From: Fusobacterium mortiferum ATCC 9817
GTDB taxonomy: Bacteria; Fusobacteriota; Fusobacteriia; Fusobacteriales; Fusobacteriaceae
Direction of reading: 5' to 3'
Assembly (NCBI RefSeq): GCF_000158195.2
Contig: NZ_GL987991.1
Location: 199,547 to 238,201, forward strand
DNA: 38,655 nt
Shown here piece after piece: positions 19,404-28,153 of this stretch (positions are counted from its first letter, which is position 1; the number at the start of each line of letters is the position of its first letter). The translations under genes and the position numbers were made by a program. Under the pieces are notes generated by a model. It was not told where the DNA came from. It made no database searches and worked only from the letters and a program-made list of their open reading frames with translations.

Positions 19404-19642
19404 TAAATCACCTCAAAATGATATATGGTATTTTCAGTTGCTATTGAGATAAGTTCTTCAACTATTTCAACACTTTTTATTTTAGAAGTTGATAGAGTTT
19501 CATTTGAATTTACTTTTTCAAATATTCCTCTTTCTCCTATTACAGCTCTAGTTATTTTAAAAACTTTTCCAACTTGCATTCTAGCTGGTGTTACGTAATT
19601 TGATTTCAATTCTATAACTTGTTCCAATTTTGCTGTTGTCAT
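19403..19642 (-). CDS. Small prophage protein (79 aa)
   Basis: Mostly beta-strand prediction: VIELKSNYVTPARMQVGKVF, KITRAVIGERGIFEKV, IATENTIYHFEVI. AGAGGTGG precedes the ATG, which overlaps the exonuclease stop codon by one base. Unknown function, within the recombination operon. Confidence 0.65.
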   Translation of the reverse strand: MTTAKLEQVIELKSNYVTPARMQVGKVFKITRAVIGERGIFEKVNSNETLSTSKIKSVEIVEELISIATENTIYHFEVI

Positions 19643-20739
19643 TATGCCACCTCTTTAATTATTTTATTTTCAGGAAGTTCTTTTAGATTAAATCTCTTAG
19701 CACCTCTTGAATCTACTTTCCAAGTCGCTAAGTATCTTCCATTAATTAATAAGCTTTCTGTTTCTAGTTCTATCATTTTCTTTTGAATTTTCGCTTTTGT
19801 TAAATCTAAGTCAGTATCTATATCTTTAATTTCTTTAGATATTAGCTTTTTAGTATCATTCATTGAGAAATAAGCTTCCATTTCTTTATCTTCTATTTTT
19901 ATTAATGGGATTTTTTCATACTTATTCTCAAATCCTTGAAACTCTTGCTTTAGGAACTCACATTCAGCTGGACAACCATTTAGTTCAGGTTCTATATTTT
20001 CATCAAGACACTTTTGAAATCTCTTAGTAAGTTCATAAGCTAAAGATATTAATTTATCATTTCTTTCTATCTCATAAACTCGAGTAAATCTATTATCTAC
20101 AAATCCTACTAGGAATCCTTTATTTTTTCCTAATACTGCAAGTTGTTGCTGGACTTGAGCAAAATATTTATTAGGAACTTCCTCTCTTTCCCATTCATAT
20201 GAAGTGAAACTATTACCTGTCTTTAGTTCCACTGGGAACCATTCTCCATCAATCTTTACCCAACTATCAGGAGTACAACTCCATAATGGATATATTGGAT
20301 TTCCTACTACTTGATTTCCTTTTCTAGTTGCTTCAACCTTTAGACCAAACTCTTTTTCAAAGAGTACTGGAAGATGAGCAATTATAAAATCCTCTGCATA
20401 GTGTCCAAACTCCATAGCTATTTGAGAGTTAAAGGATATATCACGACTGTATATTCCTTTTCTCTCTGCCCACATCAAATATGGAGAAGTATATCTATCT
20501 GGTTGGTCTATTAGCTTTTGTCTAAAAGCATTATCTACAACTAAGATTGATGTGTCTGTTGCCCCTATTCTTCTATGATTTAACCATTCTCCATCGCCAC
20601 TACATTCTCCAGCAAATAATACTTCACTAGTATGTAATGTATTCTCTTCTATAAATTTTTCTAATTCTGCTTTTCTCATTTTGCTATATCCACTAAGTCC
20701 CATTGACTTAGCTTTTTCTTTTAACTCTTTTACAGTCAT
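19642..20739 (-). CDS. YqaJ-type viral recombinase exonuclease with SAP/HeH-like N-terminus
   Basis: 365 residues from ATG 20739 (GAGGTGG upstream; the frame opens three codons earlier at GTG). Residues 1-35 (VKELKEKAKSMGLSGYSKMR, KAELEKFIEENT) look like a SAP/HeH DNA-binding helix pair. The nuclease (about 50-270) has the lambda-exonuclease-type residues GATDTS, MEFGHYAEDF, WSCTPDSW, PVELKTG and YFAQVQQQLAVLG. It would resect double-strand ends 5'-3' and load RecT. The C-terminal third is helical. Confidence 0.88.
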   Translation of the reverse strand: MTVKELKEKAKSMGLSGYSKMRKAELEKFIEENTLHTSEVLFAGECSGDGEWLNHRRIGATDTSILVVDNAFRQKLIDQPDRYTSPYLMWAERKGIYSRDISFNSQIAMEFGHYAEDFIIAHLPVLFEKEFGLKVEATRKGNQVVGNPIYPLWSCTPDSWVKIDGEWFPVELKTGNSFTSYEWEREEVPNKYFAQVQQQLAVLGKNKGFLVGFVDNRFTRVYEIERNDKLISLAYELTKRFQKCLDENIEPELNGCPAECEFLKQEFQGFENKYEKIPLIKIEDKEMEAYFSMNDTKKLISKEIKDIDTDLDLTKAKIQKKMIELETESLLINGRYLATWKVDSRGAKRFNLKELPENKIIKEVA

Positions 20740-20766
20740 CAAGACCACCTCTTTTTAAGTTTTAGA

Positions 20767-20792
20767 AGCAACTTCCAAAGTTTTTGGAAGCT
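20767..20792. other. Hairpin in the leader before the exonuclease gene
   Basis: CTTCCAAA (20772-20779) pairs with TTTGGAAG (20783-20790), extended by AGC/CT at the base. No T run on either side, so it is not a typical terminator; it may be an RNA processing or stability element. Confidence 0.5.
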
Positions 20793-20808
20793 ACCCTTAA
20801 AACTCAAA

Positions 20809-25866: not shown

Positions 25867-25952
25867 GGAGATATTGCCTAATGGTATGGCGGTAGATTGC
25901 TAATCTACCGAGTTAATAGTTCTTATGGGTTCGAGTCCCATTATCTTCGCCA
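25867..25952 (+). tRNA. tRNA-Ser(GCU), class II
   Basis: Acceptor GGAGATA pairs with TATCTTC (one G-T), discriminator G and an encoded CCA. D arm GCC/GGC with AATGGTA loop; anticodon arm GTAGA-TTGCTAA-TCTAC, anticodon GCT; long variable arm; T arm ATGGG-TTCGAGT-CCCAT. 86 nt. It reads AGC/AGT codons. Phage-carried tRNAs are common; here it lies between lysogenic genes and the replication module. Confidence 0.88.
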
Positions 25953-25956
25953 TTAT

Positions 25957-26026
25957 GGGAATGTAGTTTAATGGAAAAACTTAAAAACTAAGGTTATAAA
26001 ATGTTGGTTCAAGTCCAGCCGTTCCC
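25957..26026 (+). pseudogene. Degenerate tRNA-like gene (glycine-type arms)
   Basis: Four bases after the tRNA-Ser. Acceptor GGGAATG pairs with CGTTCCC (one G-T), D arm GTTTAATGGAAAAAC, T arm GTTGG-TTCAAGT-CCAGC are all good and resemble tRNA-Gly. The anticodon region does not form a 5-bp stem with a seven-base loop carrying U33, and no CCA is encoded. 70 nt. Probably a decayed tRNA, or an RNA retained for its tRNA-like ends. Confidence 0.5.
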
Positions 26027-26083
26027 TTTTCATAAAACTTTCCCCCTGAATACAGTTGGCAGAGCTGTAAAACTGCCATAAAT

Positions 26084-26115: not shown

Positions 26116-26223
26116 TTATCTGTACTTTCTCACTAACCATACAATAATGAGAATGAGTAATCCACCTAGAAGAATTACTCCACCATCAAGATTGATAGTT
26201 AGATTTTGAATTGTTACAGTCAT
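26116..26223 (-). CDS. Small membrane peptide, type I toxin-like (35 aa)
   Basis: MTVTIQNLTINLDGGVILLG then GLLILIIVWLVRKYR: a polar N-terminus, one membrane helix and a positively charged end, the layout of TxpA/Fst/holin-like type I toxins. GGAGGTACAG precedes the ATG. The mRNA is predicted to start near 26354 and end at 26084, leaving a leader of about 130 nt for a 35-codon gene, another feature of type I toxins. An antisense RNA partner is not convincingly visible. It could also be a small holin-like or signalling peptide. Confidence 0.6.
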   Translation of the reverse strand: MTVTIQNLTINLDGGVILLGGLLILIIVWLVRKYR

Positions 26224-26234
26224 TTCTGTACCTC

Positions 26235-26333
26235 CTTGATAAATTGTTTGTCTGCCTTGTTCAAGGGCAGAATAAAAGCTCTAATAAAAATATTAGAGCC
26301 TCCATTCTGAACTTAAACAAACAACTTATCAAG
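26235..26333 (-). other. Folded leader of the toxin-like mRNA
   Basis: CTTGATAAATTGTTTGT (26235-26251) and ACAAACAACTTATCAAG (26317-26333) pair over 17 positions with one mismatch. The left arm lies directly against the ribosome site AGGAGG, so the fold could hide it. Inside are further hairpins GCTCTAATA/TATTAGAGC and CTGCC/GGCAG; a 5'-end hairpin GTACC/GGTAC follows at 26333-26357. Confidence 0.7.
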
Positions 26334-26360
26334 TACCCATACGGGTTTCTAGGTACTTTA

Positions 26361-26389
26361 ATTATAACAAAATAATATCAAAAAGTCAA
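26361..26389 (-). promoter_or_regulatory. Promoter of the toxin-like mRNA
   Basis: Minus strand TTGACT (26384-26389), 17 bases, TATAAT (26361-26366). Confidence 0.75.
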
Positions 26390-26395
26390 AGATAG

Positions 26396-26496
26396 TTTTT
26401 ATTTTATATCTGTTCATCATTTCCAAGCCACTAGGTCATAAGGACTTAGGAAATGGTGGATATTTATAAAATAAAAATAAATGAGGACCTAGTGGC
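26396..26496. other. Nested inverted repeats with pseudoknot order before the replication gene
   Basis: Three complementary pairs: A TTTTTATTTTATA (26396-26408) with TATAAAATAAAAA (26465-26477); B CATCATTTCC (26415-26424) with GGAAATGGTG (26449-26458, one G-T); C GCCACTAGGTC (26427-26437) with GACCTAGTGGC (26486-26496). B nests in A, but C runs from the loop of B to beyond A, giving a pseudoknot. C can instead pair inside the B loop (CTAGGTC with GACTTAG). The ribosome site AGGAGG at 26511-26516 follows TTCCTC, which can cover it. Confidence 0.7.
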
Positions 26497-26520
26497 ATAG
26501 TTCCTCAAAGGAGGATAAAG

Positions 26521-27354
26521 ATGAGTAATAGTATTAAAGATGGAAGCTATATTAATATACAAAGTTTTATGGTTACAGAACTAGAACTAAAAGGAAATGA
26601 ACTTTTAGTTTATGCTATTATATATGGTTTTTCACAGACTAATGGAACATACTTCAGTGGAAGTACTCAATATCTAGCTGATTGGACTAATAGTACAAGG
26701 CAAGGAATAATGAAAAATTTAAAATCTTTAATAGATAAAGGGCTTATAGAAAAAGTTGGAGAAAATCAACAAGTAAATTATTATAAAGCTCTTAGACCTG
26801 TAAACAAAGTTAACCAGTCAACTGAGTTAACACGTAAACAAAGTTTACAGGGTGCTAAACAAAGTTTACAGGAAGAGGTAACTGAGTTTACAGGTACATG
26901 TAAACAAAGTTTACACAGTAATATATATAATAAACTAGATAATAATATAAATAATAATAGTAGTAGTGTTGATGAATCAACTCAACCACAACACCTTGAA
27001 GAAAAAGCTATTGAATTTAGAAATGATATTATAGAACTAAAAGACATCATAATAAATTCAACTGGAGAGAATCCACAAACAGTGGATATGGTATTTAAAC
27101 CTGTTATGTATAGGGATATAATAAAACCTTTACTTGCTAAGATAAAAGCTAGTAAGTTTTTAATGGGAGAAAAGGACATAAAACCTAAACTATATACTTT
27201 TGTTAGACAAGATAGAATCAATGAAATTTTAGCTGGACTTTATGATGACTTTGAAAAAAAGAAAACTGTTGAAGTAATACCTGTTGAAAATTTAAAAGAT
27301 AAAGCTAGAAGAGAAAAAGAGCAAGAAGAGTTTGAGAGAATGTTAGGATTATAA
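26521..27354 (+). CDS. Replication initiator with winged-helix N-terminus
   Basis: 277 residues. The N-terminal winged helix (about 10-90: KGNELLVYAIIYGFSQTNGT, YLADWTNSTRQGIMKNLKSL, IDKGLIEK) is that of phage replication initiators. The middle (about 90-150) is low-complexity and repeats KQSLQ because the DNA carries iterons. The C-terminal part (165-277) would contact the helicase loader encoded 13 bases downstream. AAAGGAGG precedes the ATG. The overall plan (DNA-binding end, origin inside the gene, loader next) matches lambda O/P. Confidence 0.78.
   Translation: MSNSIKDGSYINIQSFMVTELELKGNELLVYAIIYGFSQTNGTYFSGSTQYLADWTNSTRQGIMKNLKSLIDKGLIEKVGENQQVNYYKALRPVNKVNQSTELTRKQSLQGAKQSLQEEVTEFTGTCKQSLHSNIYNKLDNNINNNSSSVDESTQPQHLEEKAIEFRNDIIELKDIIINSTGENPQTVDMVFKPVMYRDIIKPLLAKIKASKFLMGEKDIKPKLYTFVRQDRINEILAGLYDDFEKKKTVEVIPVENLKDKARREKEQEEFERMLGL
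26799..26965. repeat. Iterons and AT-rich tract: probable phage replication origin
   Basis: Core GTAAACAAAGTTTAC (palindromic, centre AAA) occurs at 26834-26848 and 26900-26914, with TAAACAAAGTTTAC at 26856-26869 and a diverged copy TAAACAAAGTTAAC at 26801-26814. Two longer units also share AACTGAGTT(T/A)ACA. Directly downstream, 26918-26965 is almost only A and T (ATATATAATAAAC, AATAATATAAATAATAATAG), a likely unwinding element. The repeats lie inside the initiator gene, as in lambda. Confidence 0.75.
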
Positions 27355-27367
27355 AGGGGAATAAAAA

Positions 27368-28153
27368 ATGGAAATAATGGGAAATAAAGTGCCTGTATGT
27401 AAATATTGTGGAAAAGAATATATTGAGAATAAAGATATTCCAGCTAATTTTCCAGAGTTCATAAGAGAAGCTATGAGATATAGACCAGCTTGTAATTGTG
27501 AGGAAAAACAAGAGAAGAAAAGGAGAGAAGAGCAAGAGAAAGAAAGACAAAGACAATGCTTGATGAATAAAGTCAAGAGATATAAGGACATATCTGTTAT
27601 AGACAAAAAGTTCTTAGATAGCAGATTTGACAACGCAGATATGGCTGACAAGCATATGGCTATGGCAAAAAAATATGCTGAGAACTTTATCAAGTATGGA
27701 ACTGCTGAAGGAGGTATCTTGCTATATGGTGGAGTAGGAACAGGAAAAACATATGCTACTGCTTGTATTTGTAATGAACTAATGAGTAATGGAAAAACAG
27801 TATTAGTTATGAACTTAGGCTTATACTATTTGAAACTCAGAAGAGAATGGGCAGAGGCTGAGAATGATGTTCTTAACTATGTCAAGACTTGTGATTTGTT
27901 GGTTATAGATGACTTAGGAACTGAAAATGTATCAGAGTTTACAAAAGAAAAGATGTTCAACCTGATAGATACAAGATATAGAGCTAATAAACCTATGCTT
28001 ATAACAACTAACTTGACTCCAGATGAGATAAGAGAAAAACTTGGAAGTAGAATAGCAGATAGAATAGCTGGAAGTTGTCTTGAGTATGAAGTCAAAGGAG
28101 AATCTAAAAGAAAATTTGATAAAAAAGCATTTGCTGAATGGTTGACTGCTTAG
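27368..28153 (+). CDS. DnaC-like helicase loader ATPase
   Basis: 261 residues. An N-terminal cysteine cluster (CKYCG at 11-15, CNC at 42-44) can bind zinc; a charged helix follows (45-70). AAA+ core: P-loop LLYGGVGTGKTYA (119-131), Walker B LLVIDDLGTE, sensor LITTNLTPDEI and arginine finger-like GSRIADRIAG. It loads the replicative helicase onto the origin bound by the initiator upstream. GGGGAATAAAAA precedes the ATG. Confidence 0.88.
   Translation: MEIMGNKVPVCKYCGKEYIENKDIPANFPEFIREAMRYRPACNCEEKQEKKRREEQEKERQRQCLMNKVKRYKDISVIDKKFLDSRFDNADMADKHMAMAKKYAENFIKYGTAEGGILLYGGVGTGKTYATACICNELMSNGKTVLVMNLGLYYLKLRREWAEAENDVLNYVKTCDLLVIDDLGTENVSEFTKEKMFNLIDTRYRANKPMLITTNLTPDEIREKLGSRIADRIAGSCLEYEVKGESKRKFDKKAFAEWLTA

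Follow-up and report, generated by a model that had tools for sequence, protein, structure and literature searches.

The window, a 38,655-nucleotide stretch of the genome of Fusobacterium mortiferum ATCC 9817, belongs to a prophage, as indicated by a replication initiator gene followed by a DnaC-like loader gene and, further on, by terminase genes. The initiator (277 amino acids; HTH_36, phage replication initiation families) is encoded at 26521–27354 on the + strand, and the DnaC-like helicase loader at 27368–28153 (+) is the second gene of the operon. On the − strand, a divergent 35-residue membrane-type peptide, MTVTIQNLTINLDGGVILLGGLLILIIVWLVRKYR, is encoded at 26116–26223. The hairpin-rich leader of this peptide and a strong promoter-like site occupy 26304–26390, a stretch with several further occurrences in the genome, and by their sequence the peptide and this stretch look like a type I toxin locus. 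The promoter-like site (TTGACT-17-TATAAT, 26364–26391, − strand) is directed away from the element described below and is not kept across the family of that element.

The element lies directly upstream of the initiator, on the + strand. A preliminary description of the window had reported three inverted repeats of 13, 10 and 11 bp in the interleaved order A-B-C-B′-A′-C′ within 101 bases, and all of them are present. Repeat A joins TTTTTATTTTATA (26396–26408) to TATAAAATAAAAA (26465–26477) over 13 exact base pairs, and repeat B joins 26415–26424 to 26449–26458 over 10 bp, one of them a U-G pair in RNA. A and B merge into a single pair of 29-nt arms (26396–26424 and 26449–26477; 83% complementary as DNA) that forms hairpin 1. 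The apical loop of this hairpin contains C, GCCACTAGGTC (26427–26437), which has an exact 11-bp complement in C′, GACCTAGTGGC (26486–26496), the perfect match that had been claimed. C′ is contained in hairpin 2 (TGAGGA...TCCTCA, 26482–26507), which is defined by folding, has 85.7% of its cells paired, and uses the 3′ half of C′ as its loop. The 3′ arm of hairpin 2 carries an anti-Shine–Dalgarno sequence, TCCTC (26502–26506), with two possible partners, the GAGGA of hairpin 2 and the GAGGA at 26511–26515; the Shine–Dalgarno (SD) site of the initiator is recognized by its sequence at 26509–26514. The complementarity noted earlier between TTCCTC (26501–26506) and the initiator ribosome site is therefore real, and this segment can pair either with the SD or with the upstream GAGGA. 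By keeping its 3′ arm paired, hairpin 2 is predicted to shield the SD from that arm. The preliminary description does not mention a possible 15-codon leader reading frame, MVDIYKIKINEDLVA (26453–26500), which begins in the 3′ arm of hairpin 1 and continues through C′.

As + strand RNA, the element has a minimum free energy of −43.5 kcal/mol (z −5.5), and none of 200 shuffled sequences reached a value as low. When both strands of the window were scanned for hairpins of this kind (29-nt arms, at least 23 pairs), the element ranked first in number of pairs (27 of 29) and also in the run of complementarity between loop and downstream sequence (11). Other hairpins show runs of 3–9, and a sub-hit that is hairpin 1 itself in a shifted register shows 10. 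The earlier judgment that chance is an unlikely origin is thus upheld, most decisively by the way the element is conserved and covaries among homologs. Against Rfam 15, two tRNAs are the only features of the window to exceed the gathering cut-off, and the element matches no Rfam family, in line with the earlier statement that it is not a known riboswitch class; an E-value search of Rfam returned chance-like matches far below the cut-off.

In total, 25 copies of the element were recovered from a single bacterial family, and we analyzed 22 of them. The three left out are L060 and L065, in which the element is identical to that of L013, and L149, a late find located beside a RepA_N gene. By DNA search, 6 of 12 genomes from the genus contain a match. 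A first covariance model (R1, 8 copies), restricted to the long hairpin plus the GAGGA:TCCTC hairpin and leaving out C:C′, matched 13 of the 61 genomes of the family, one of them (G029) falsely. A second model (R2, 19 copies) identified the element in 15 of the 98 genomes searched across the phylum; every one belongs to the 61 of the family, and none to the 37 genomes from other Fusobacteriota. The distribution within the family is 15/61 at E ≤ 0.01, plus one genome recognized by neighbourhood, and 9 of the 24 RepA_N loci of the family have the element. Widening the search to 389 genomes gave 16 matches at E ≤ 0.001, namely 13 in the family and three in distant genomes; the latter fold as plain hairpins in which C/C′ is not visible, and were rejected. 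Two further candidates were discarded: L082, which by eye lies inside a gene and is without C/C′, and L003, a toxin-like leader.

In viral DNA, a first pattern scan returned 9 loci, none of which scored with R1, and a second returned 12, of which four are real (L060, L065, L066, and L068, all from IMG/VR). A pattern scan of genome contigs gave 31 loci, which come from other phyla; ten of them were run against the model and none scored. Protein scans of genome and viral contig collections with the initiator of the window gave zero confirmed close relatives, which is explained by initiators that are too divergent and by collections that may omit near genomes. The element was not found by DNA similarity in phage and plasmid records, where the sole plasmid match, from Fusobacterium varium, ends upstream of the element, at window position 26389. 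Fusobacterium phages are among the phages whose initiators are similar, and in four Fusobacterium phage records with RepA the gene lies inside a co-directional operon and the element is absent.

All 22 copies fold into a hairpin with a loop, a second hairpin, and then the SD. Hairpin 1 measures 20–33 bp, and the energy of hairpin 2 ranges from −7.9 to −12.7 kcal/mol. The alignment was fitted to hairpins 1 and 2 and not to C:C′. Changes on both sides of a pair are observed for 24 of 29 pairs in hairpin 1 and 5 of 5 in hairpin 2, counts that lean towards structure because both hairpins were fitted. For the unfitted C:C′, 10 of 11 pairs show change on both sides. The paired fraction of C:C′ cells is 92.3% vs 70.6% after shuffling, and 53 cells are changed on both sides vs 16.5 (0/500 shuffles, with a null that ignores kinship). 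Slid registers of C:C′ leave 24–46% of cells paired; like the shuffles, this control ignores relatedness in a family with few deep lineages.

The C:C′ pairing is present in 22/22 copies, the longest Watson–Crick matches between apex and tail being 11, 11, 9, 5, 8, 9, 9, 9, 9, 11, 7, 11, 11, 11, 13, 13, 10, 12, 9, 13, 11, and 11 nt. The low values (L011, L016) reflect runs interrupted by G-U. Matched loops and tails therefore share 5–13 nt of complement (at least 8 in 20/22); the 462 mismatched pairs average 5.1, and the 12 of them that reach at least 9 are all between near relatives. The covariance search of related prophages upstream of the initiator, suggested in the preliminary description, thus had a positive outcome and supports its central proposal of a pseudoknot-capable, switchable RNA. 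Its two mutually exclusive folds for C, with a partner in its own loop or with C′, hold in the subgroup of the window and fail family-wide: the own-loop pairing (CTAGGTC with GACTTAG) is shared by the window with some of its near relatives, and the apical loop is shorter elsewhere. Across the family, the exclusive choices are hairpin 2 versus C:C′ and anti-SD versus SD.

The mismatches in hairpin 1 identify the nucleic acid involved. In 16 aligned copies (L079, L080, and L081 were removed, their arms being out of register, and L108, L110, and L111 are absent from the alignment), we count 362 Watson–Crick, 67 G-U, 16 A-C, and 19 other cells. A DNA cruciform or a minus-strand RNA would give no preference of G-U over A-C, and the counts therefore point to + strand RNA, supporting on comparative sequence grounds the assignment of the element as a conserved structured RNA. 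The long inverted repeats and the position adjoining the initiator are what a replication origin or a protein-binding cruciform would also present, and a role in the origin had been proposed. Given the G-U excess, the fact that the element ends at the SD, and its retention in front of initiators with unrelated DNA-binding N-terminal domains, we find a DNA element scarcely credible.

The next gene is readable in 21 of the 22 copies (L068 stops at the edge of its locus), and in 20 of these 21 an initiator lies directly 3′ of the element. In the remaining copy (L002), a GIY-YIG gene comes first, and its stop overlaps the initiator start by 1 nt. Placed between leader and initiator, with its stop overlapping the start by 1 nt, the GIY-YIG gene at L128 13368–15025 (− strand) may be an inserted mobile gene that exploits the leader. 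By PHROGs or Pfam, the initiators include initiation proteins, O-like proteins, replisome organisers, and DnaD-like loaders; those of L085, L016, and L078 were assigned by BLASTP to tested ones. Unrelated N-termini occur with shared C-termini, and the reverse. The initiators of the window and L010, for example, share 78%, in the C-terminus only. The presence of the element before such different initiators suggests a control module that is kept while initiators are exchanged. The upstream neighbours also vary, between a toxin-like peptide gene, another small gene, and tRNA genes, and hitch-hiking with the divergent toxin-like gene was rejected for this reason. The tRNA genes lie shortly upstream on the same strand (window 25867–26027; L011 951–1023; L012 1689–1764; L085 1199–1282; L078 855–1018), and their types across copies are Ser-GCT, Leu-TAA, Lys-TTT, and Pro-CGG.

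Our interpretation is that the initiator mRNA has this element as its 5′ leader, which would switch translation in cis, and we put the probability of this reading at roughly 0.55. The leader probably sets the amount of initiator protein that is made. In the proposed mechanism, hairpin 1 would display C in its loop, while C′ would be held in hairpin 2, immediately 5′ of the SD. With hairpin 2 closed, the anti-SD in its 3′ arm would be occupied and the SD open, allowing the initiator to be made. Pairing of C with C′ would start as a loop contact, GCCA:UGGC, and extend to the full 9–13 bp, while the AU-rich base of hairpin 1 would partly open. Hairpin 2 would thereby be broken, and the freed anti-SD would mask the SD, so that no initiator would be made. 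We infer transcription of the element, the assignment of C:C′ to the OFF state, and what would tip the switch; a consensus scan of the 22 copies gave no consistent sense promoter.

The prediction that C:C′ hides the SD follows from the ability of the 3′ arm of hairpin 2 to cover the SD instead. The SD-covering hairpin has a mean energy of −6.2 kcal/mol in the 22 copies (−6.3 kcal/mol in the window) vs −1.15 kcal/mol in 48 local control genes with an SD (p = 4e-9), a control set that includes about five elements, which works against the difference. For single elements, p ranges from 0.002 to 0.256 and is weak for several. The computed unpaired fraction of the SD falls from 0.87 in the free RNA to 0.28 with C and C′ occupied, and is lower in 22/22 copies; as blocking other segments of equal length often hides the SD too (median 0.19–0.90), the computed effect cannot be ascribed specifically to C′ in many copies. 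The energy of C:C′ plus anti-SD minus that of A plus hairpin 2 lies between −2 and −15.5 kcal/mol if no pseudoknot penalty is applied. The estimated energies of the two states are thus similar and neither is clearly dominant, as a switch needs.

The possible leader frame starts at a conserved AUG in the 3′ arm of hairpin 1 (window 26453) and is open through C′ in 17/22 copies vs 6.2 expected from shuffles (p = 1e-6, for a frame picked after viewing the window and in related copies); among 14 representatives, 12 are open vs 3.8 expected. It contains 8 stops in total, vs 36 and 31 in the other two frames. The start is AUG in 13 copies and UUG or GUG in some others. A ribosome on this frame would cover C′ and could couple leader translation to that of the initiator. 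In L066 and L077, the leader frame continues in frame into the initiator, which could there also be made in a longer form.

Pseudoknots that control a replication initiator are textbook knowledge for enterobacterial plasmids, and in ColIb-P9 the pseudoknot activates. The sign of the switch proposed here could likewise be the opposite: translation of the leader would open the structure, C:C′ would pair and the SD would be exposed, possibly in competition with an antisense RNA against the loop. This reading gains from parts that follow one another in the same order (loop-bearing hairpin, leader frame, a complement of the loop just ahead of the SD, initiator) and from the excess of open leader frames. 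The loop core GCC/GGC is, moreover, similar to the UUGGCG motif named for the I-complex plasmids, whose replication is reported to be controlled by loop pairing (PMC7646527; PMC10724649). The closest known system is the pseudoknot-controlled rep leader of these IncI/IncB (I-complex) plasmids. As in ColIb-P9/IncB, the element is a leader directly upstream of the replication initiator, a hairpin loop pairs with a site beside the initiator SD, SD masking and loop specificity are recognizable, and a short leader frame is possible; we regard this frame as a lead that brings the system closer to the repY-repZ arrangement. Several features differ. The SD is located outside hairpin 2, so that breaking hairpin 2 is predicted to hide it and the predicted sign is reversed. 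The leader frame begins within the hairpin, shows no conserved SD among the 22 copies, and lacks a plausible start codon at the aligned position in L089 and L108. A conserved antisense promoter is not seen: the 22 copies have no minus-strand promoter at a consistent place within the element or 3′ of the loop, by a consensus scan that is weak in AT-rich DNA. The hosts, finally, are Fusobacteriota prophages with different initiators. We therefore consider an activating pseudoknot rather unlikely, though a serious competitor.

The geometry of the element bears on whether a repressive C:C′ pairing would form within one molecule. The linker (2–17 nt across copies) cannot span the whole stem, so that either A must open or the pairing occurs in trans. 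C could thus pair with C′ on a second initiator mRNA, or on an mRNA met by a hairpin 1 fragment cut by RNase III, and output would drop as transcripts rise. Such pairing, which we consider improbable, would be a form of copy counting without an antisense gene, with the same low odds. A stem of 20–32 bp keeps C away from C′ and is of sufficient length for RNase III. The leader of phage lambda N contains an RNase III-sensitive hairpin, and the element resembles it as a long hairpin of a phage early leader close to a ribosome site; we know of no pairing between the loop and a site at the SD in the lambda N leader. C:C′ is also highly variable, with 17 different C sequences among the C sites of the 22 copies, and co-resident copies differ in it (G000, G004, G010, G034, and G035). 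It is conceivable, at long odds, that each prophage mRNA carries a variable key (C) and a lock (C′) that pair in trans as a self-addressed RNA lock. If so, initiator synthesis would fall as copies accumulate and replication would be counted, co-resident prophages would be kept apart without an antisense RNA gene or a repressor, and the control leader would be swapped as a module between unrelated initiators. Some co-resident C sites could cross-pair, however (L016 with L014), and the spacing between C and C′ is kept at 56–70 nt (CV 0.06), which fits pairing in cis with the base of the stem open. Stem arm plus linker has a CV of 0.08, the linker alone 0.57, and arm and linker lengths are inversely correlated (Spearman −0.59), suggesting, for the few lineages at hand, that one compensates for the other to keep the distance; we treat both this compensation and its fit to cis pairing as suggestive only.

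Two U-G pairs of hairpin 1 are kept in 19/22 copies, as might be seen in a ligand- or protein-binding riboswitch or an attenuator. In alignments A4 and A5, a conserved unpaired ligand-binding core is absent; the sequence is free to diverge while pairing is kept, no Rfam class matches, the switch is located at the SD, and a terminator U-run is absent. Together these features make this class of regulator very unlikely. A type III toxin–antitoxin system, with tandem pseudoknot repeats and an endoribonuclease gene, was rejected, the element being single and followed by an initiator.

In terms of modularity, the element can be compared with the REx-C control module of Pseudomonas plasmids, which has a putative antisense RNA and for which the authors argue against a pseudoknot with the rep region (PMC5304414). 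The two are alike in that a control leader stays in place while replication genes of different families replace one another behind it, and differ in that the pseudoknot is the covarying core here.

A limited literature search found no published description of the element, a new family of RNA whose functional type is known. It adds a conserved, Rfam-unmatched RNA before phage initiators in another phylum than that of the enterobacterial plasmids, and a leader that persists through exchanges of the initiator it precedes. Its natural variants form a ready compensatory-mutation test, and it offers a handle on the timing of the start of replication in Fusobacterium prophages.

Two other leaders were noted in passing. 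In the window, a long hairpin at 20724–20808 (− strand, fold z −6.2) directly precedes the SD of a 368-residue gene (19642–20748) that by eye is phage exonuclease-like with a SAP-like start; a C′ partner was not seen there, and the hairpin was set aside as a false positive copy of the element. The RepA_N genes of L144 (G012) and L147 (G048) have a different leader about 130 bases upstream of the start, in which an inverted repeat, GTATAC..GTATAC, is followed by CCTCCTAAA and TTTAGGAGG. Judged by its sequence, this leader is a second kind of putative anti-SD hairpin before an initiator.
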